Source: Veillonella magna DSM 19857
GTDB taxonomy: Bacteria; Bacillota; Negativicutes; Veillonellales; Veillonellaceae
Direction of reading: 5' to 3'
NCBI RefSeq assembly: GCF_000428745.1
Contig: NZ_AUAN01000011.1
Location: 1 to 56,757 of the forward strand
Length of the DNA: 56,757 nt
Shown: positions 34,262 through 44,554 of the stretch, piece by piece
Layout: every line of letters starts with the position of its first letter
How positions within the stretch are numbered: the stretch's first letter is position 1
The notes under the pieces: generated by a model
What the model saw: only the letters and a program-made list of their open reading frames with translations
What the model was told of the DNA's origin: nothing
The model's database searches: none
Translations under genes and position numbers: made by a program

Positions 34262-34330
34262 TATGAAGGAGCGGTTGCTCTAGGAGGCTAGGTCTTGCGA
34301 ATAGCCTCTACGAGCAACCGCTCCTTCATA
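34262..34330 (+). repeat. Long hairpin 3 with GGTCTTGCGAA apical loop
   Basis: A perfect 19-bp outer stem (34262-34280 with 34312-34330), then GAGGCTA (34284-34290)/TAGCCTC (34302-34308), closing the 11-nt loop GGTCTTGCGAA (34291-34301). No T-run follows, so it is not a classical terminator. Same architecture and loop as the hairpins at 165-327. Confidence 0.9.
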
Positions 34331-34521
34331 ATGTAATAACAAGGCGAATCGACTATAGAAGATAGGGCATGGCGAATAGCCTCTACGAGCAACTGCTCCT
34401 TCATACTGTAATAACAAGGCGAATCGACTATAGAAGATAGGGCATGGCGAATAGCCTTTACGAGCAACTGCTACTTCGTACTGTTATGACAAGGAGCATC
34501 GATTGTCAGAGATAAGTCATT
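34297..34521 (+). repeat. 75-bp tandem repeat, three copies
   Basis: Units start at 34297, 34372 and 34447. Units one and two differ at two positions; unit three is diverged. Unit one begins inside the loop of hairpin 3, so each later unit repeats its right arm but not its left arm. The left arm could pair with either of the first two right arms. Confidence 0.9.
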
Positions 34522-34683
34522 GCTAGGAAATGGGAAATAAGATGAAAAATAGCTTTAAAATTAAAAATCAAGTAAAGCTGAAAGGTATTAGACGTTTTTC
34601 AGATGAAAAGAGGATACCATAATCATAAGAAATGCCTAATGGCGCGGAATAGATGGTTTATGTAATAAAGAGCGGTGCTCCAA
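34522..34683 (+). promoter_or_regulatory. hutU upstream region
   Basis: AT-rich, no gene. AATCAAG (34566-34572, complement CTTGATT) and TTAGACG (34588-34594) resemble the heptamers before the SARP regulator and the permease gene. A possible -10 (CATAAT, 34618-34623) has no good -35, as expected for an activator-dependent promoter. Confidence 0.35.
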
Positions 34684-36732
34684 ATGAATAATGCAGCAAT
34701 TGCAGAGGCTATGACGATTAAACTTGAATTTCCTAATGGATTACCGCAACCGAAACCGTTCAAAGAGGGTATCCGTCGGGCACCGGATAGAGGGTTCCGT
34801 TTGACACAAGAACAAACGGAAATTGCATTGAAAAATGCGTTGCGCTATATTCCGGAAGAGTATCATGAGGAACTGATTCCGGAGTTTTTGGAAGAATTAA
34901 CAACTCGCGGACGAATTTACGGATATCGCTTCCGCCCGGAAGGAAATCTTCACGGCAAGCCGATTGATGAATACAAAGGCAAATGCGTAGAAGGCAAAGC
35001 ATTTCAGGTTATGATTGATAATAACCTCGATTTTGCGGTAGCGCTGTACCCGTATGAATTGGTTACCTATGGTGAAACAGGAAGTGTTTGTCACGATTGG
35101 ATGCAGTATCTATTAATTAAACGGTACTTAGAAGAGGTAACACAGGATCAGACCTTGGTAGTAGCCTCCGGTCATCCGGTGGGCTTGTTCCGTTCCAAAC
35201 CGGAAGCACCACGGGTTATCATTACCAATGGTATGATGATAGGGATGTTTGACAACCTGAGAGACTGGGAAATTGCAGAAGAAATGGGTGTAGCCAATTA
35301 TGGACAAATGACAGCCGGCGGTTGGATGTATATCGGACCGCAGGGCATTGTTCACGGTACATTCAATACGATTTTAAATGCCGGCCGCATGAAGTTAGGC
35401 ATTCCGGTAGACGGCGATTTAACGGGTAAGCTGTTCGTTACCTCCGGTCTTGGTGGTATGAGCGGAGCTCAGGGTAAGGCTGCAGAAATTGCTAACTGTG
35501 TGGCTATTATCGCTGAAGTTGATTCGTCACGAATCCAAACGCGTTTGGACCAAGGTTGGATTTCAGGTGTATCCGAATCGTTACCGGAAGTGATTGCTAT
35601 GGCACAGGCTTCTATGAAAGCCGGTGAAGGCAAAGCCTATGCATATCACGGCAATATTGTAGATTTATTGGAATACATCGCGGACAATGATATTCATGTA
35701 GATTTAATATCCGACCAGACTTCTTGCCATAATGTGTATGATGGTGGCTACTGTCCACGGGGAATTACCTTTGCAGAACGCACGCAGATGCTGGCCGATG
35801 ATCCGGTGAAGTTCAGAGAACTCGTAGATAAAACCTTACAGGCTCATTTCCGTGCATTGAAACGATTAACGGAAAAAGGTATTTACTTCTTTGACTATGG
35901 TAACTCCTTTATGAAAGCTGTATATGATGCCGGAGTTAAGGAAATCTCTAAGAATGGGATCGATGAAAAGGATGGATTCATTTGGCCAAGCTATGTAGAA
36001 GATATTATGGGGCCGCAGTTATTTGATTATGGCTATGGACCGTTCCGCTGGGTATGCCTTAGCGGTAAGCCGGAAGATCTTCATAAGACAGATATGGCGG
36101 CTATGGAATGTATTGATGTCGATCGCCGTTATCAGGATCGCGATAATTATAATTGGATTCGTGATGCGGAAAAAAATAAAATGGTCGTTGGTACACAGGC
36201 ACGTATTCTGTATCAGGATGAAGTAGGTCGTGTACGCATTGCATTGAAGTTTAACGAATTGGTGCGCAAAGGTGAAATAGGACCGGTTATGCTGGGTCGT
36301 GACCATCATGATGTATCAGGGACGGATTCGCCGTTCCGCGAAACATCCAATATTAAGGATGGATCTAATGTTATGGCGGATATGGCTATTCAAACCTATG
36401 CCGGCAATGCGGCTCGTGGTATGAGTTTGGTAGCTTTGCATAACGGAGGCGGTACCGGTATAGGTAAAGCTATTAATGGTGGTTTTGGCCTCGTCCTAGA
36501 TGGCAGCCATCGCGTTGATGAAATTATTCGTTCTGCCTTGTCGTGGGATGTTATCGGTGGTGTAGCTCGTCGTTCGTGGGCACGTAATGAACATGCTATG
36601 GAAACCGCTGTTGCTTTTAATAAAACGCGGGAAGGCATTGGTCATATTACTATTCCTTATGTAGCAGATGATGCAAAAGTTAAAGCGGCCGTAGCCAAAG
36701 TGTATCCTACGGCAAAAGTAGTAAAGGATTGA
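34684..36732 (+). CDS. hutU: Urocanate hydratase
   Basis: 682 residues from the ATG at 34684; an upstream GTG is also possible, but AIAEAMTIKL after the short Met leader matches the family N-terminus. Longer Clostridium/Fusobacterium type. NAD-binding TSGLGGMSGAQGKA near 255, DQTSCHNVYDGGYCP near 345 and the C-terminal ALHNGGGTGIGKAINGGFG are present. Converts urocanate to imidazolone propionate, second step of histidine breakdown. The ribosome site is weak (AGCGG). hutI follows after 84 bp. Confidence 0.95.
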   Translation: MNNAAIAEAMTIKLEFPNGLPQPKPFKEGIRRAPDRGFRLTQEQTEIALKNALRYIPEEYHEELIPEFLEELTTRGRIYGYRFRPEGNLHGKPIDEYKGKCVEGKAFQVMIDNNLDFAVALYPYELVTYGETGSVCHDWMQYLLIKRYLEEVTQDQTLVVASGHPVGLFRSKPEAPRVIITNGMMIGMFDNLRDWEIAEEMGVANYGQMTAGGWMYIGPQGIVHGTFNTILNAGRMKLGIPVDGDLTGKLFVTSGLGGMSGAQGKAAEIANCVAIIAEVDSSRIQTRLDQGWISGVSESLPEVIAMAQASMKAGEGKAYAYHGNIVDLLEYIADNDIHVDLISDQTSCHNVYDGGYCPRGITFAERTQMLADDPVKFRELVDKTLQAHFRALKRLTEKGIYFFDYGNSFMKAVYDAGVKEISKNGIDEKDGFIWPSYVEDIMGPQLFDYGYGPFRWVCLSGKPEDLHKTDMAAMECIDVDRRYQDRDNYNWIRDAEKNKMVVGTQARILYQDEVGRVRIALKFNELVRKGEIGPVMLGRDHHDVSGTDSPFRETSNIKDGSNVMADMAIQTYAGNAARGMSLVALHNGGGTGIGKAINGGFGLVLDGSHRVDEIIRSALSWDVIGGVARRSWARNEHAMETAVAFNKTREGIGHITIPYVADDAKVKAAVAKVYPTAKVVKD

Positions 36733-36816: not shown

Positions 36817-38061
36817 ATGACACAACGATTATTGATAAAAAACGCATCGCAAATCGTTACCCCTAAAGGACATTCAGCCGTTCGGGGGGCGGATATGAAA
36901 GATGTTGCTATCTATGAAAATCAATCGATTTTAATAGAAGATGGTACAATTGTTGCTATTGGTGATAATCCGGCATGGGAGAAAGAAATTCCTACGGAGC
37001 GACAGGTTGATGCTAAGGGAAAGACCGTTTTACCGGGATTTGTGGATTCACATACCCATTTCGTGTTCGGCAGTTATCGGGCCGATGAATTTCTATGGCG
37101 CATGGAAGGTATGAGCTATATGGACATCATGGAACGCGGTGGTGGCATTGCTAATACCATGAAAGCAACTCGAGAAGCGTCGGAAGATGAATTAATTACT
37201 CACAGTTTGGATTTCTTAAAGAAGATGTTAGCCTTCGGCATTACCACCGTAGAAGGCAAGAGTGGCTATGGCATGGATTATGATACGGAACTCAAGCAGT
37301 TGCGTGTAATGAAACGCTTGGAAGAGCTACAGCCGGTGAGTATTGTGCGGACATTTTTAGGGGCTCATGCTGTACCTCCAAGTTACAAAGATAGAAATGA
37401 TGAGTTTATCGATTTCTTACTACGCGATGTCATGCCAACGGTAGCAAAGGAAAAGTTAGCCGAATTTTGCGATGTATTCTGCGAAAAAGGTGTATTTTCC
37501 ATTGAAGAAAGTCGCAAATTGTTAACAGCTGCAAGAGAGCAGGGCTTTAAGTTAAAAATTCATGCTGATGAAATTGTTACTTTTGGTGGCTCTGAATTGG
37601 CCGGTGAGCTGAAATGTACATCGGCAGATCATTTGTTGCATGCATCGGAGGCAGGAATTAAAGCGTTGGCTGATAATGGGGTAGTGGCTACGCTGTTGCC
37701 GACGACAGCATTTTGCTTAAAAGAACCTTATGCGGCTGCGCGTAAGATGATTGATTCCGGTTGTGCGGTGGCATTAGCGACTGACTTTAATCCGGGTAGC
37801 GGCTTTACAAACTCCGTACCACTGATGATTGCTTTGGCTGTTATTTATATGGGCATGACAGCGGAAGAAGCAATTACGGCATTGACGCTTAATGGTGCGG
37901 CTGCCGTAGACAGAGCGGATAGAATCGGTTCTGTTGAAGTGGGCAAACAGGCAGATTTGGTGATTCTGCAATACCCCTCTTATAAATTCTTACCGTACCA
38001 CACGGGCGTGAATATAGTGGAAACGGTAATTAAAAACGGTGACATTGTTCATCGCGCATAA
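36817..38061 (+). CDS. hutI: Imidazolonepropionase
   Basis: 414 residues, amidohydrolase family. FVDSHTHFVFGSYRADEF carries the metal-binding HTH, then TTVEGKSGYGMDYDTELKQLRVM, KIHADEI and a catalytic Asp in ALATDFNPGS. Opens the imidazolone ring to give N-formimino-L-glutamate. GCGAGGA upstream. The following enzyme (FtcD or HutG) is not in the window. Confidence 0.96.
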   Translation: MTQRLLIKNASQIVTPKGHSAVRGADMKDVAIYENQSILIEDGTIVAIGDNPAWEKEIPTERQVDAKGKTVLPGFVDSHTHFVFGSYRADEFLWRMEGMSYMDIMERGGGIANTMKATREASEDELITHSLDFLKKMLAFGITTVEGKSGYGMDYDTELKQLRVMKRLEELQPVSIVRTFLGAHAVPPSYKDRNDEFIDFLLRDVMPTVAKEKLAEFCDVFCEKGVFSIEESRKLLTAAREQGFKLKIHADEIVTFGGSELAGELKCTSADHLLHASEAGIKALADNGVVATLLPTTAFCLKEPYAAARKMIDSGCAVALATDFNPGSGFTNSVPLMIALAVIYMGMTAEEAITALTLNGAAAVDRADRIGSVEVGKQADLVILQYPSYKFLPYHTGVNIVETVIKNGDIVHRA

Positions 38062-38075
38062 GCCATGGTAATGAG

Positions 38076-38114
38076 GCGTTCTTCTCTTATATATAAGGGA
38101 AGAACGCTTTTTTT
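38076..38114 (+). terminator. Terminator after hutI
   Basis: Stem GCGTTCTTC (38076-38084) with GAAGAACGC (38099-38107), inner CTTAT/ATAAG, then seven T. Confidence 0.9.
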
Positions 38115-38260
38115 GTTGCATAACTTTAGCATAGTAGAGAGAATTATGATAAATTGTTATAGTGATTTTTATGAAAAATGACATTAAATTATGTAATATC
38201 ATCGTATTTGTTGTTATAATAGGCGTATATGAGGGGCATAGGGAATCAAGAGAAAGATTA

Positions 38261-38306
38261 TTTGACGAAATTATTTGACGCTTTCTTTTGACGGTATAAT
38301 TTGACG
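38261..38306 (+). promoter_or_regulatory. Four TTTGACG heptamers at exact 13-bp spacing
   Basis: TTTGACG at 38261, 38274, 38287 and 38300: every copy perfect, every spacing 13 bp, each preceded by A/T. A TATAAT (38295-38300) overlaps the block. SARP-type regulators bind direct heptamer repeats, so this is a likely operator for the SARP gene 55 bp downstream (autoregulation). Confidence 0.75.
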
Positions 38307-38360: not shown

Positions 38361-41300
38361 ATGGCATGTAAATTAGAAGCGCGCTTCTTAGGTACGCCGG
38401 TTATTATCAAGGATGGAGAAGAAGTATTCTTCTCGTATAACAAAGTAAATGCATTGGTATATTACATTTTAGTGCGCGGTACGGTTATGCGCGATGAATT
38501 AAGCGGTATATTATGGGCAGACAAGCCCGATACCGTAGCACGTAAAAATTTACGTAATGCAATTTATGAAGCAAAAAAAATGTTAGGCTCGGAAACTTTT
38601 ATTTCACCGCGCAAGGCCATTATCAAAGTGAATCCTGATGTAGAGTTTGATATTGATGTTAAGCGTTTTGAGGAGAATCCGGAAGAAAATCTTGATCTGT
38701 ATAAGGGAGATTTTTTGCAGGGCTTTTTCATTAAGGATTCGGTGGAATACGAGGACTGGTATCTGGCGGAACGTAACCGACTCAAGGGTCTGTATATGGA
38801 CACAGTGCGTGCTAAAATCGAAGAAGCGGCGGAAAAGAAAGATTTTACCGTCATCGAACGTTACGGACAGATATTACTCAACTATAATCCTTACGATGAA
38901 GGTGTATACGCTATTTTATTGCGCGCCTATTGTGAACAAGGTAAGATGCAACAGTCCATGGAATTATACGAATCCATGAAAGATATTTTTACACGTGAGT
39001 TGCACGCTTCGGTGCCGGAAGAAATTGATAGCATTATCAGGCAGGCGTTACAAAAAGATGATACACAGCCCGGATTTAGCAAGGGTGTTTCGGTGCCAAT
39101 CGGTCGTGAAACTGAGTTTGAAGAACTGAGCACGCACATGTGGTCATTTTTGCGTGGACGTACCGGTGAGGCTTTGATGATTATGGGGGATGCCGGTAGT
39201 GGCAAAACCAGTTTGAAGGATGCTGCGCTCAGCGTGTTGACTGATGAAGTGGCAGTTATACAAACTAATTGTTATCAGATGGAACGTAACTTCTTATTAC
39301 ATCCTTGGACGGGAATTATGGAAGGCTTGGTAGATTTATTGCGCTCACGAGGTACGGAGGTGCCTGATTTCGAATTGAATCGTATTTATACTTTATTCCC
39401 ACAAATGGATATGAGTATTGACCGCGATTTAGGCCTTATGGAAATTAAAGATATTTTAAAATTCGATTCTCTGTTCCATACACTTTCGTCAGTACTTGAT
39501 ATTGCGTCGGCCGAGAAGAAGTTAGTCATTGTATTTGAAGATATACAATGGATGGATCCACTCAGTTTATCGTTGTTAAATAGTTTAATTTTGCGAAAAC
39601 AGTCAGACCGTCTTATTTTCCTGTTGACCGGTAGGGATTCGCGAGAAAAGGATTTTCAGCATTTTGTTACTTCCGTGGCTATGTATAAGCGGCTGCATAT
39701 TACCGTATTGAATCCGCTTACTAAAAAGGATATTCGGCGCTTGGTAGAATCCAGACATTTATCTATGGAGGTAGATGACAATCTTATACAGCGATTGCAG
39801 CTTGAAACGGAAGGAAATCTATTTTTATTGATGGAATGTTTGCACGCACTGGAGTCTACGGGACGCTTTGATAGTTTGACGAATAATATGCAGACGATTT
39901 TTAAAGCGACCTGTTTATCATTGACAGAAGAGCAGCAAAAGATTTTAGATTTTATTTCGCTTTTCTACGGTGGTGCACCGTTAGCTATGATATCCGAATA
40001 CATGCAGATGGATAATCTCCAGTTGTTAGATCGTTTGGAGGTGCTGGAGGGCAAAAATTTAATTTCGCCGATTCCACAGCAGACAGAGGTTATCTATGAA
40101 GTAACGCAGCAGAAGCTGAAAGAATTTGTTCAAAAGCAGTTATCGCCGGAAAAATGGAAAATTTTACATGGTTATTTATCCGGGTTATGGGAAAAGCGTT
40201 TGACTCATTCTAAACAGGATATATATATTTATCAACACTTAGAATATCATTTTGAACAAGCCGGTGATCTTGTCATGATGGGTCGCTATAAATTGAAGAG
40301 TTTAATGTATTATTTGAACTTCAGTCATGAACTATTCCCTGTGCTGGGAACAGCTGAACCGATGCAGACAGGTGGTGCCAGCTACTTTACGGAAGCAGAT
40401 ACGTTGCAATATCTAGAAAGTGTTGAGGCAATGATGGAACGGATTCGGCAGACGTACGGTGCGACACCGGAGGTACGCAACTTAGAATTGGTATATTTAC
40501 ACCTTATCGGACGTTACTTTATTCGTGAAGGAAAATATGAAAAGGGCGTTCGCTATATTCTTGATCTTATTGAACAGTCCTTAGAAATGAATAATCGCGA
40601 TTATGCGCTTATGGGTTATAAGCAGATGATTTATTATGATATTCAGATTGGCAATGCCGAGGAAATGAAAAACTATTTGGAGATTGCGTTGGATTTGGCG
40701 GTGGAATGTAATTACCATAAAGAAGTTGGGATTTTGTTGCGCCTAAAAGGATTGAATATGATTATGCAAGGCGATTTTGCCGAAGCAGAACGACTTTTAA
40801 ATGAATCTATTGCTACATTCATGGTGACACAGACTGTGGCACGACGCTATGCACTTAACATTGCAGCTGCCTATAATTATATCGGTGAGATAAGGCGTGG
40901 CTCGGGACAGTTTGAAGAAGCTATTGAATATTATGATAAGGCGTTGGAGATTTGTAAAAATCAACAAGCGTACAGCTCTTGGGTGGTGTTCTCCTGTAAT
41001 GCAGGTATTGCCGCCTATAGCTTGGGGCGATACGATAAGGCTAAGGAATATTTTGAACAGGCTTATAATTTCTTTAATCGTTATGATTTTTATTGGCGCC
41101 GTCCTATCGTAGAGTCGTATATGGCTTTGCTGGCTATGAAGGAAGGGGACGAAAAGAAAGCCATCCAATTTTTAGATGATGCTATGGCTAAATTGGCCAT
41201 GATGAATAATCCGCAGGAAATAGGTTATGTGAATATGGCTATTGCGCTCATTAAGAAGGAGTATCCGTCTACGGAAATCAGTCGCCACTATCGTGGCAGT

Positions 41301-41393
41301 GCCTCTATGTACGGAGGGCGGGCATTGCGATATTTAGATGTCTACCGTGATACACATGAACGTAAAACGATAGAATCTATGGTTAATGAATAA
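38361..41393 (+). CDS. SARP/BTAD-ATPase-TPR transcriptional activator
   Basis: 1010 residues. Residues 1-90: OmpR-like winged helix (RDELSGILWADKPDTVARKNLRNAIYEAKKML); 95-235: bacterial transcriptional activator domain; Walker A GDAGSGKTS at 277-285, Walker B-like LVIVFEDIQWMD near 390; from about 650 TPR-like repeats (YNYIGEIRRGSGQFEEAIEYYDKALEIC and others). This is the large SARP/AfsR-like layout. It sits between hutUI and the permease-hutH unit, so it probably activates the hut genes, perhaps sensing histidine or urocanate. Confidence 0.85.
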   Translation: MACKLEARFLGTPVIIKDGEEVFFSYNKVNALVYYILVRGTVMRDELSGILWADKPDTVARKNLRNAIYEAKKMLGSETFISPRKAIIKVNPDVEFDIDVKRFEENPEENLDLYKGDFLQGFFIKDSVEYEDWYLAERNRLKGLYMDTVRAKIEEAAEKKDFTVIERYGQILLNYNPYDEGVYAILLRAYCEQGKMQQSMELYESMKDIFTRELHASVPEEIDSIIRQALQKDDTQPGFSKGVSVPIGRETEFEELSTHMWSFLRGRTGEALMIMGDAGSGKTSLKDAALSVLTDEVAVIQTNCYQMERNFLLHPWTGIMEGLVDLLRSRGTEVPDFELNRIYTLFPQMDMSIDRDLGLMEIKDILKFDSLFHTLSSVLDIASAEKKLVIVFEDIQWMDPLSLSLLNSLILRKQSDRLIFLLTGRDSREKDFQHFVTSVAMYKRLHITVLNPLTKKDIRRLVESRHLSMEVDDNLIQRLQLETEGNLFLLMECLHALESTGRFDSLTNNMQTIFKATCLSLTEEQQKILDFISLFYGGAPLAMISEYMQMDNLQLLDRLEVLEGKNLISPIPQQTEVIYEVTQQKLKEFVQKQLSPEKWKILHGYLSGLWEKRLTHSKQDIYIYQHLEYHFEQAGDLVMMGRYKLKSLMYYLNFSHELFPVLGTAEPMQTGGASYFTEADTLQYLESVEAMMERIRQTYGATPEVRNLELVYLHLIGRYFIREGKYEKGVRYILDLIEQSLEMNNRDYALMGYKQMIYYDIQIGNAEEMKNYLEIALDLAVECNYHKEVGILLRLKGLNMIMQGDFAEAERLLNESIATFMVTQTVARRYALNIAAAYNYIGEIRRGSGQFEEAIEYYDKALEICKNQQAYSSWVVFSCNAGIAAYSLGRYDKAKEYFEQAYNFFNRYDFYWRRPIVESYMALLAMKEGDEKKAIQFLDDAMAKLAMMNNPQEIGYVNMAIALIKKEYPSTEISRHYRGSASMYGGRALRYLDVYRDTHERKTIESMVNE

Positions 41394-41456
41394 CAAAATC
41401 GAGAGATTGGTTTTTATGTTTATTTATTTACCTCTTTAGTCAAATAAAAAACGTCC

Positions 41457-41505
41457 AAAGAAGGTCTACCATCGATGAATTATCGACAGTGAGACCTTCT
41501 TTTTA
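41457..41505 (+). terminator. Terminator after SARP gene
   Basis: AAAGAAGGTCT (41457-41467) with AGACCTTCTTT (41492-41502), inner ATCGAT/ATCGA, T tail. Confidence 0.9.
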
Positions 41506-41521: not shown

Positions 41522-41563
41522 AGTCAAAAAAATCAAGCTTGAAAATCAAGTAGAATTTTGACA
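41522..41563 (+). promoter_or_regulatory. Cluster of heptamer-like sites before the permease-hutH unit
   Basis: AATCAAG at 41531 and 41544 and TTTGACA at 41557 are spaced 13 bp apart; AGTCAAA at 41522 is a further inverted relative. The TTTGACA also contains a TTGACA -35 (41558-41563) whose nearest -10, TATACT (41584-41589), is 20 bp away, long enough to need an activator. Confidence 0.45.
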
Positions 41564-41677
41564 CTTTTAAGGCTACTGCAAGCTATACTATTTACATAAT
41601 ATAAAGGATATACAGTATTCTATATATCCGCATAAGGTACTAGGTTTAGTGGTTTAGTGTAAAGGAGTTGAGCGTGT

Positions 41678-42982
41678 ATGGAAATTTTGGCGAATCCTAT
41701 AGTGATTTCGGTCATTGTTATGTCAGTGCTGTGTTTGCTGAAGATGAACGTCCTCTTAGCTATTGTGGTCGCCGGTATTGTGGCCGGACTTAGCGGCGGA
41801 ATGTCGTTGTCGGATACCATAGGATCCTTGATCAATGGTATGGGTGGTAACTCAGAAACAGCTCTCAGCTACATTTTGTTAGGTATTTTAGCGGTTGCTA
41901 TCGGACGGTCGGGACTGGCCGGCGTTGTATCGCGTAAGATTACGAAGGTAATCGGCGGAAAGAAAACAGCATTTGTATTCTTGATCGCCTTTATTGCTTG
42001 CTTCTCGCAGAACTTAATTCCGGTACATATTGCATTTATTCCGATACTTATTCCGCCACTGCTGATTTTGATGAATAAGATGAAGCTCGACCGGAGAGCC
42101 GTAGCTTGTGCGTTGACCTTTGGTTTGAAAGCACCATATGTATCGTTGCCGGTTGGTTTTGGGCTATTATTTATGACAATTATTAAAGATCAGATGGTAG
42201 CGAACGGTGTTGATGTAGGCATCAGCGATATTTCAGCGGTTATGTGGATTGGCGGTGCCTCCATGTTAGTTGGCCTTGTGTTAGCGACGATTGCGTATAG
42301 TCGTAAGCGTGACTATGAGGACTTGCCGGTAATCGGTGCCGATGAAAATCCGGAAGATACACAGATGACAAAGGAATGCTGGATGGCATTATTGGGTGCT
42401 GCCGTTGCTTTTGTAGCACAGCTTTATTTTGAATCGCTTCCTATTGGCGCTATTTGTGGCTTGGCAGTTATGCTCCTTACCGGTTGCATTCGTTGGAAAG
42501 AAATGGATACGACTGTTGACGGTGGGGTTCGCATGATGGGCTTTATAGCTTTTGTTATGCTCATTGCAGCCGGCTATGCTAATGTACTTCGTGAAACACA
42601 GTCGGTTCAGAGTTTAGTAGCAGCTACTACTTCCGTTATTGATTCTAAGTTTGCCGGAGCTTGCTTGATGTTGGCAGTAGGCTTGTTGATTACCATGGGG
42701 ATCGGTACTTCTTTTGGTACAATTCCGGTTATTGCTTCCATCTATATTCCGATGGGGATTGAAATTGGCTTCTCCGTACCGTCTATTATTCTCTTAATCG
42801 GTATTGCCGCAGCTCTTGGCGATGCTGGTTCGCCGGCATCGGACTCCACATTGGGACCAACATCCGGTCTTAATGCGGATGGACAGCATAATCATATTTG
42901 GGACACTTGTGTTCCGACATTTATATTCTACGATATCCCGCTCTTTATTGGTGGCGTTATCGGTGCCCTTTTACTAGGCTAG
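41678..42982 (+). CDS. YuiF-like Na+/H+ antiporter family transporter, probable histidine permease
   Basis: 434 residues with about ten to twelve membrane segments and conserved polar loops (FSQNLIPVHIAFIPILIPP, GTSFGTIPVIASIYIPMG, GDAGSPASDSTLGPTSGLNADGQHNHIWDT). Strong AAAGGAG upstream. The family contains amino-acid transporters; pairing with hutH 18 bp downstream makes histidine the likely substrate. Confidence 0.85.
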   Translation: MEILANPIVISVIVMSVLCLLKMNVLLAIVVAGIVAGLSGGMSLSDTIGSLINGMGGNSETALSYILLGILAVAIGRSGLAGVVSRKITKVIGGKKTAFVFLIAFIACFSQNLIPVHIAFIPILIPPLLILMNKMKLDRRAVACALTFGLKAPYVSLPVGFGLLFMTIIKDQMVANGVDVGISDISAVMWIGGASMLVGLVLATIAYSRKRDYEDLPVIGADENPEDTQMTKECWMALLGAAVAFVAQLYFESLPIGAICGLAVMLLTGCIRWKEMDTTVDGGVRMMGFIAFVMLIAAGYANVLRETQSVQSLVAATTSVIDSKFAGACLMLAVGLLITMGIGTSFGTIPVIASIYIPMGIEIGFSVPSIILLIGIAAALGDAGSPASDSTLGPTSGLNADGQHNHIWDTCVPTFIFYDIPLFIGGVIGALLLG

Positions 42983-43000: not shown

Positions 43001-44554
43001 ATGACTTACAGTGTGAAAGCGATTAAAGAGGTTGTATTAACCGGACATGACTTGACGTTGGAAGAGTTAGTAGCGGTGGCACGTTACGATGCAACGGTTC
43101 GTATTAGTGAAGAAGCAGTACAGCAGATTGTAGATTCCCGTGCTATAGTGGATTCTATCGTAAATAGCGAAGCTGTAGTATATGGAATTACCACAGGCTT
43201 TGGATCGTTATGTCGCGTACATATTTCAAAGGAAGATTGCTCACAGTTGCAAGAAAACTTAATTCGCACACATTCTTGTGGATTCGGGAAACCTTTCAGT
43301 CGTGAATTAACGCGTGCCATGATGCTTATCAGAGCAAACGCACTTGTCAAAGGTTATTCCGGTATTCGCTTAGAAACACTGGAAACGTTAATTGCCATGA
43401 TTAATAAAGGTGTTCATCCGTATATTCCGGAAAAGGGTTCACTGGGGGCTTCTGGTGATTTAGCTCCGCTGTCTCATATGGTATTGCCTATGTTGGGGTT
43501 AGGCGATGCAGAATATGAAGGACAGTTATTGCCGGGAAAAGAAGCTATGGAGAGAGCAGGTATACCTGTTATTGCTTTACAAGCGAAAGAAGGCTTGGCA
43601 TTAATTAATGGTACACCGGTATTGACGGCGGTAGGCGCGTTGGCGTTGTGGGAAGGTATTTGCCTTCTCAAGTTAAGTGATGTGGCAGCAGCCTTGTCGC
43701 TGGAAGCTATGAGAGGTATCATCGATGCATTTGATGAACGTATTCATAGTATCCGTCCTCATAAAGGTCAGCTGGATACGGCACGTAACTTACGAACTTT
43801 ATTAAAGGGGAGTACATATGTAACAAAGCAAGGTGAATTGCGCGTGCAGGATCCGTATTCATTGCGCTGTGTACCGCAAATTCACGGAGCTTCTAAGGAT
43901 GCATTAGCCTTTGTTAAAGAAAAGGTTGATATTGAAATTAATTCTGTCACGGATAATCCAATAGTATTGCCGGATGGTGATGTAATTTCCGGTGGCAATT
44001 TCCACGGAGAACCGATGGCGTTACCGTTTGATTTCTTAGGAATAGGATTAGCGGAAATTGCTAATGTATCGGAACGCCGTTTGGAACGCTTGCTTAATAA
44101 CTCTCTCAGCGGATTCCCGTCATTCTTGGTTAAGCATTCCGGATTAAACTCCGGGTTTATGATTACGCAGTATGCGGCAGCAGCTTTAGTAAGTGAAAAC
44201 AAAGTACTGGCGCATCCGGCGTCGGTAGATTCTATTCCATCTTGTGAAAACCAAGAAGATTTGGTTAGTATGGGGGCTCATGCAGCTAGAAAAGCTGGTG
44301 AAATTGTGGAAAATGTACGGCGCGTAGTCGCTACAGAATTATTAGCTGCCTGTCAGGCTATTGATTTGCGGGAGGAACAGGCAACGTTAGGTAAAGGTAC
44401 TAAAGCCGCTTATGATGCCATTCGCAAGAGCAATGCATTTATCGATTACGATAAGGATATTGAAATGTTTAAGGAATTAGAAAAGATTACGGGCATTTTG
44501 GAAGACGGTACTTTGCTTGAAGCAGTAGAAAACGCTGTGACAATGGATGTATAG
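43001..44554 (+). CDS. hutH: Histidine ammonia-lyase
   Basis: 517 residues. The MIO cofactor forms from Ala-Ser-Gly in GSLGASGDLAPLSHM near 147; the catalytic Tyr lies in GITTGFGSL. Deaminates histidine to urocanate, first step of the pathway. AGATAGGAGG upstream. It is separated from hutUI by the regulator gene, an order unlike the Bacillus hut operon. Confidence 0.97.
   Translation: MTYSVKAIKEVVLTGHDLTLEELVAVARYDATVRISEEAVQQIVDSRAIVDSIVNSEAVVYGITTGFGSLCRVHISKEDCSQLQENLIRTHSCGFGKPFSRELTRAMMLIRANALVKGYSGIRLETLETLIAMINKGVHPYIPEKGSLGASGDLAPLSHMVLPMLGLGDAEYEGQLLPGKEAMERAGIPVIALQAKEGLALINGTPVLTAVGALALWEGICLLKLSDVAAALSLEAMRGIIDAFDERIHSIRPHKGQLDTARNLRTLLKGSTYVTKQGELRVQDPYSLRCVPQIHGASKDALAFVKEKVDIEINSVTDNPIVLPDGDVISGGNFHGEPMALPFDFLGIGLAEIANVSERRLERLLNNSLSGFPSFLVKHSGLNSGFMITQYAAAALVSENKVLAHPASVDSIPSCENQEDLVSMGAHAARKAGEIVENVRRVVATELLAACQAIDLREEQATLGKGTKAAYDAIRKSNAFIDYDKDIEMFKELEKITGILEDGTLLEAVENAVTMDV

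Follow-up and report, generated by a model that had tools for sequence, protein, structure and literature searches.

A TTTGACG array in the probable leader of an AfsR-like regulator gene, and related heptamer pairs at histidine-utilisation promoters of Veillonella

Why would four identical heptamers, spaced at a strict 13-bp period, stand just ahead of the gene for a large regulator of the SARP type? The repeats lie in a 56,757-nucleotide stretch of Veillonella magna DSM 19857 (contig NZ_AUAN01000011.1, the whole of which is called the window here) that has the gene order hutU-hutI, regulator gene, NhaC-type transporter gene, hutH (Table 1). On balance we favour the reading that the gene encodes an AfsR-like protein that activates histidine use, and that its leader holds an operator for its own repression. 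What the analysis establishes is the array and its conservation, the word shared with the hut promoters, the layout of those promoters and the predicted fold; we infer where transcription starts, that the protein binds, activates and represses, and any signal derived from histidine.

Table 1. Positions of the features in the window.
Feature	Positions	Strand	Remarks
hutU promoter, TTAGACG N4 TCAGATG N9 TACCAT	34588..34620	+	11-bp pair; box 1 to -10, 27 nt; in 7/7 genus genomes
hutU, urocanase	34675..36732	+	
hutI, imidazolonepropionase	36817..38061	+	TIGR01224 above cut-off
Terminator-like hairpin with T run, 3' of hutI	38073..38110	+	consensus match, 0.4 expected by chance; parts hutI from the regulator gene
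Probable -10 of the regulator gene, TATAAT	38215..38220	+	present in 7/7 genomes; starts 46 nt before the first heptamer
TTTGACG array, four copies, 13-bp period	38261..38306	+	within the regulator gene's probable leader; one array per genus genome
Large SARP, 1010 residues, proposed hut regulator	38361..41393	+	winged helix, BTAD 108-224, AAA_16 247-420, TPR
Second heptamer pair, 11-bp period, inverted	41450..41469	-	ends 87 bp 5' of the NhaC promoter box
NhaC-hutH promoter, TTTGACA N4 TAAGGCT N9 TATACT	41557..41589	+	box 2 degenerate in the window
NhaC-type Na+/H+ antiporter-family transporter	41678..42982	+	no NCBIfam match
hutH, histidine ammonia-lyase (aromatic amino acid lyase family)	43001..44554	+	name from family and hut context

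The array and the protein encoded downstream

The four copies of TTTGACG occupy 38261-38267, 38274-38280, 38287-38293 and 38300-38306 of the plus strand, in exact 13-bp steps. A preliminary description had held that such an arrangement is improbable by chance, and this was borne out: when the window was simulated 40 times with a first-order Markov model, not one simulation contained even three identical heptamers at a constant period, counting heptamers with at least three different letters at periods of 8-30 bp. The real window contains constant-period heptamer arrays of at least three copies at three places (near 41, near 1307 and the array at 38261). Short tandem repeats of 19 and 12 bp are located at 37-109 and 1304-1378, close to the start of the window. 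Single copies of TTTGACG are not rare in the window (15 observed, 8.7 expected). The same description had called for a genome search for the 13-bp phased motif. In the whole 2.2-Mb genome, recurrence of TTTGACG after 3-30 nt was seen only at the three adjacent pairs of the array itself.

The product of the 1010-residue open reading frame had been described as SARP-like, and we reached the same assignment from its BTAD domain and its fold. Pfam returned the BTAD, AAA_16 and TPR families at the places listed in Table 1. According to Pfam and a predicted model, an OmpR-type winged helix is followed by the BTAD domain, as in large SARPs, and an NTPase domain and a TPR region lie C-terminal to this SARP part. 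The model of residues 1-240, for which the alignment consisted of the window protein and counterparts from 32 of 41 loci, had a mean pLDDT of 92.6. Its best matches in the PDB were AfsR (8k60, 8hvr) and EmbR, with E values of 1.8e-10 to 3.7e-8 and TM scores (by query) of 0.61-0.67 over about 250-270 columns; these two proteins accounted for the only six chains with E < 0.001. A sequence profile of the N-terminal part also found EmbR and AfsR, chiefly through the BTAD half and amid many TPR/PPR matches. Searching the PDB with the full-length protein sequence gave TPR proteins, designed repeat proteins and DafA, and no SARP. The NCBIfam AfsR equivalog model scored 23.7 bits, far under its cut-off of 1430, and we therefore do not count the regulator as AfsR itself.

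The neighbourhood of the gene points to histidine breakdown. At least one of hutH, hutU, hutI and the NhaC-type gene is found near the regulator gene at 31 of 41 loci (L017-L057; Veillonella, Acidaminococcus, Clostridium, Peptoniphilus, Anaerosphaera, Vagococcus and others), where L053 and L054 are counted on a lyase of about 30% identity only. No hut gene was present in the available stretch, in some cases a short one, at the other ten (L023, L034, L036, L038, L042, L047, L049, L051, L052 and L055). Judged from this context, the NhaC-type transporter perhaps serves the uptake of histidine or urocanate. At L045 (4001-9914, Geosporobacter subterraneus) the regulator gene occurs twice in tandem, and in five genomes of a sister genus (L008-L012) a regulator gene of 41% identity directly follows a gene that by eye resembles a formiminotransferase-type cyclodeaminase. 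The gap before hutU in the window holds a 75-bp tandem repeat (34297-34502, 2.7 copies, 93% matches).

Heptamer pairs ahead of hut genes

Variants of the same heptamer are present in pairs at the promoters of the hut genes. We compared seven genomes of the genus, from the Veillonella seminalis/ratti/intestinalis group. Ahead of hutU, all seven carry TT[AG]GACG TTTT TCAGAT[GT], followed after nine nucleotides by a -10 hexamer that reads TACCAT, TAAAAT or TACAAT. Ahead of the NhaC-type gene, a TTTGAC box 1 and a TATACT that starts 27 nt after its first base are again found in all seven, and the GAC of box 2 is good in six of the seven. A pattern scan built on the hutU and NhaC sites detected a heptamer pair with the same geometry before hutD in 7/7 genomes. 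The protein would thus have what is expected of a large SARP at its putative target promoters as well, namely heptamer pairs with an 11-bp period that end 9 bp before the -10.

The exact combination of an 11-bp period and a 27-nt offset to the -10 was also observed at 17 of 33 loci outside the genus, while each of the other 62 spacing cells held at most four loci; the geometry had been fixed on the genus sites, and many of the outside regions had been viewed by eye before counting. The 33 loci were taken from L017-L057 with the five genus loci deliberately excluded. L038, L049 and L057 were also dropped because their regulator frames are under 900 codons (broken or cut) and no hut gene scored above threshold; a profile scan nevertheless found heptamer sites in L057. 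Inspection by eye showed no site immediately 5' of the NhaC-type gene in L022, and none immediately 5' of the hut genes inside the operons of L028, L035, L037, L039, L040 and L048.

Scanning the seven genus genomes with the 11/27 geometry yielded 30 matches, against 15 for a reversed control pattern. They comprise seven at hutU, six at the NhaC-type gene, seven before hutD, five before a gene for a Gate-domain membrane protein and five others (for hutD and the Gate-domain protein one copy each was family-searched and the remaining copies were matched by their N-termini). Two of the five others precede genes for an NCS1 permease and a DcuC carrier, both in the window's genome, and three have no open reading frame of at least 80 codons starting within 700 nt downstream. 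The heptamer profile, scanned with the training genus included, discriminated weakly at low scores (78 positions above 9, versus 66 in one shuffle) and better at high ones (34 versus 11 above 12). TTGACG pairs with 5-8-nt spacers occur at 22 places genus-wide, compared with nine for the reversed pattern; ten of the 22 are in the leader arrays, six are inside genes and six are intergenic, with five of these last at one orthologous place. Five genus genomes (L060, L063, L064, L070 and L071) keep TTGACGAATAATTGACG, which has an 11-bp period and is intergenic and inverted relative to a gene that by eye encodes a dehydrogenase-like protein of 385 residues. In a single genome (L069, near 1519, minus strand) TTTGACG, ATTGACG and TTTGACG are spaced by 13 and 10 bp, intergenic and inverted relative to an aspartase-like gene, named by eye.

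From these comparisons, TTTGACG, or more loosely TTNGAYG, is very probably the binding word of the SARP encoded downstream, and the promoters with 11-bp pairs are its putative targets. The inverted pair between the regulator gene and the NhaC promoter has a similar counterpart in the six relatives, as seen by eye in an alignment of the seven genomes, and may allow looping.

Conservation and position of the array

The regulator gene was searched for in 40 genomes (the organism's own and 39 relatives) and found in 13: the seven of the genus, five of the sister genus g2 with 41% identity, and G035 with a weak partial match. All seven genus genomes have the array, each at one place only and ahead of the regulator gene. 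The preliminary description had stressed an exact 13-bp period. This applies to the window's genome, with its four copies at 13/13/13, and is confined to it, because the six relatives have three copies at 12/13 bp. The middle box is TTGGACG in three of the six. The alignment of the relatives is invariant in 20 of 21 columns of the boxes, compared to 5 of 11 in the spacers and 10 of 42 in the flanks (Fisher P 8.5e-8, with rows that are not independent, since L005 and L006 are identical over the array stretch).

Outside the genus the array was not found. The array pattern matched seven of 28 family genomes, all of the genus, and none of the remaining 21; the same was seen with up to three mismatches allowed, where the reversed-pattern control gave two matches. 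Neither the five g2 genomes with the 41% homologue nor 12 family genomes without a detected gene contain the array, and none of 41 orthologue entries outside the genus has at least two copies of TTTGACG within 400 bp upstream. A lack of conservation upstream of orthologues had been named beforehand as a refuting result; the repeats are conserved there within the genus (7/7) and not beyond it, and the array is a local feature. The five g2 genomes, with a homologue and no array, are what could be expected if the heptamers belonged to another regulator that controls both the SARP gene and the hut genes. We consider this very unlikely, as the sites recur beside members of this family in a number of genera and orders at the spacing of a SARP dimer, and the 12 family genomes without a detected gene have no array either.

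Two TATAAT hexamers have to be told apart in the region upstream of the regulator gene. The preliminary description had pointed to the one that overlaps the array. It is present, at 38295-38300, but we rejected it as a promoter: it is not kept in the six relatives and lies at none of the offsets from the boxes that occur at hut promoters, and is thus probably not a promoter. The other (38215) is found in all seven genomes. In a sigma-70 consensus scan, which gave three promoter-like sites with 2.8 expected, this TATAAT was missed because it has no good -35; conservation in the seven upstream regions makes it the probable promoter of the regulator gene. From its first base to the start of the array the relatives have 65-66 nt, as against 46 nt in the window, and from the end of the array to the start codon there are 54 nt in the window and 43-44 nt in the relatives. 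In the window the array would accordingly span about +35 to +80 relative to where transcription probably starts, and in the relatives about +54 to +85. Since the conserved TATAAT lies 5' of the array, the repeats are in the probable transcript leader, outside the position of an activator. Further 5' of this TATAAT, the six relatives are also conserved around TATGCATAATTGCTATAT and TATTTTGC, where some other regulator may bind.

We also looked at the preceding gene, which is hutI in the window and a yebC-like gene (named by eye) in the relatives. It is co-directional in 6/6 relatives, and a divergent promoter can therefore not account for the array.

Given that SARPs are typically activators, the array might activate a second promoter between itself and the start codon and so serve positive autoregulation. 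In some relatives an AT-rich hexamer does follow, about 20 nt from where the last box begins. By eye, however, no -10-like hexamer is present at the 16- and 27-nt offsets known from hut promoters, and no downstream -10 keeps a constant place in all seven genomes, whereas the upstream TATAAT does. This arrangement is unlikely. The position inside the probable transcript also raised the idea that the array acts in RNA, with repeated UUUGACG motifs that bind a protein or fold into a structure; HutP, a regulator of histidine breakdown, binds hut mRNA in Bacillus. The seven leaders have different predicted minimum-energy folds, except for near-identical pairs, and Rfam gave no match, and on these grounds we rejected an RNA element. 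The same word is found upstream of the -10 at hut promoters, hence outside the transcript, and action in RNA is highly improbable. The clustering of consensus boxes at one place per genome would also suit a decoy that titrates the regulator and has no direct effect on the transcription of its gene. A decoy need not stay in the regulator's own leader, yet the array does so in 7/7 genomes, and we regard this explanation as quite unlikely.

A proposed operator for self-control and its relation to known SARPs

Autoregulation had been suggested by the preliminary description, and it is kept as the best reading of the sequence. The same word marks the promoters of histidine breakdown, and for this reason the regulator most likely uses the array copies to curb its own production. 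At hut promoters, two heptamers 11 bp apart lie just 5' of the -10, and two protomers side by side would recruit RNA polymerase there in the manner of AfsR. The layout is close to that of AfsR promoters, which makes activation by the same mechanism the natural inference. At its own unit, three or four heptamers at 12-13 bp, oriented as the gene, would be bound inside the probable leader. Because the array is downstream of the conserved TATAAT, repression fits better than activation: a protein bound there could not contact the promoter as AfsR does, and would most likely block initiation or elongation, so that the regulator would limit its own level by negative feedback. The presence of three or four consensus boxes suggests a cooperatively filled site. 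SARPs are known mainly as activators, which counts against self-repression. Also weighing against the favoured reading are the lack of the array beyond the genus, the unequal distances between TATAAT and array, the failure of the sigma-70 scan to list the conserved TATAAT, the poor box 2 of the NhaC promoter in the window, the ten loci with no hut gene in the available stretch, and the matches that the reversed control patterns gave.

The leader array is not a classical SARP operator, which would have an 11- or 22-bp period and lie upstream of the -10; it has 13/13/13 or 12/13 spacing and lies downstream of the TATAAT. At 10.5 bp per turn, simple arithmetic gives a rotation per site of about 86 degrees for 13 bp and about 51 degrees for 12 bp (about 50-86 degrees), so protomers would not share one face of the DNA. 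A more specific scheme, possible but doubtful, is that one SARP reads a single heptamer in two arrangements, with opposite effects. Pairs in phase, at 11 bp and 5' of the -10, would activate the hut operons, and out-of-phase leader arrays at 12-13 bp would let the full-length oligomer wrap DNA and repress; whether the effect is positive or negative would then depend on spacing and position and not on the word.

The proposed regulator shares with AfsR, the large SARP of Streptomyces coelicolor, a winged helix and BTAD fold followed by ATPase and TPR parts. AfsR protomers are reported to bind side by side on 11-bp direct repeats between the -10 and -35 and to contact sigma region 4, with the afs box at -40 to -19 (PMC10936776). 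The SARP rule given in the same source places the 3' repeat 8 bp from the -10, with a period of 11 or 22 bp; the hut promoters have 9 bp and an 11-bp period. The differences are that the putative targets here are histidine-utilisation genes in Firmicutes/Negativicutes and not antibiotic genes, that the heptamer is another one (in an alignment read by eye, N66 and E70 stand where AfsR has its base-contacting T88 and R92), and that an extra 12/13-bp array lies downstream of the regulator's own probable promoter.

Off-standard spacing has precedents. PimR, a SARP-LAL protein, is reported to bind heptamer direct repeats cooperatively, with three in its main operator and a secondary operator at an off-standard period of 10 bp (PMC5930380). 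It shares with the putative sites described here both the heptamer direct repeats and an unusual spacing in one operator, but its operators are in the pimM promoter and activating, whereas the off-standard array here belongs to the probable leader of the regulator itself. Spacers of 4-15 nt have been recorded at SARP sites (PMC10972967), which makes 12-13 bp uncommon and not unheard of. The preliminary description had presented the 13-bp geometry as new; the array is indeed off the classical period, but such spacers had been recorded and the putative targets use the classical 11 bp. For a SARP that lowers its own transcription, RslR2 is a precedent, reported to repress itself; the available part of that source does not describe a leader heptamer array (PMC7917814).

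With HutC, HutP and HisR the proposed regulator would share the control of histidine metabolism, whereas the protein families and the sites differ. HutC, of the GntR family, is reported to control histidine breakdown, and HisR histidine synthesis and uptake (PMC9413887). The latter source places yuiF of Peptoniphilus under HisR, and the term SARP occurs 0 times in it. If yuiF is the NhaC-type gene, some Peptoniphilus transporter promoters may therefore have two regulators. A literature search that covered mostly titles and the beginnings of abstracts, with few subscription journals, found no description of a SARP as a hut regulator, which does not prove absence.

The comparison provides a testable word, regulon and promoter layout for an AfsR-like family outside Actinobacteria, and would link this family to the breakdown of histidine in anaerobes, among them Veillonella, Acidaminococcus and Clostridium. 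The 11-bp pairs and the 12-13-bp arrays may also serve as a natural pair of operators for asking how spacing governs SARP oligomers and autoregulation.
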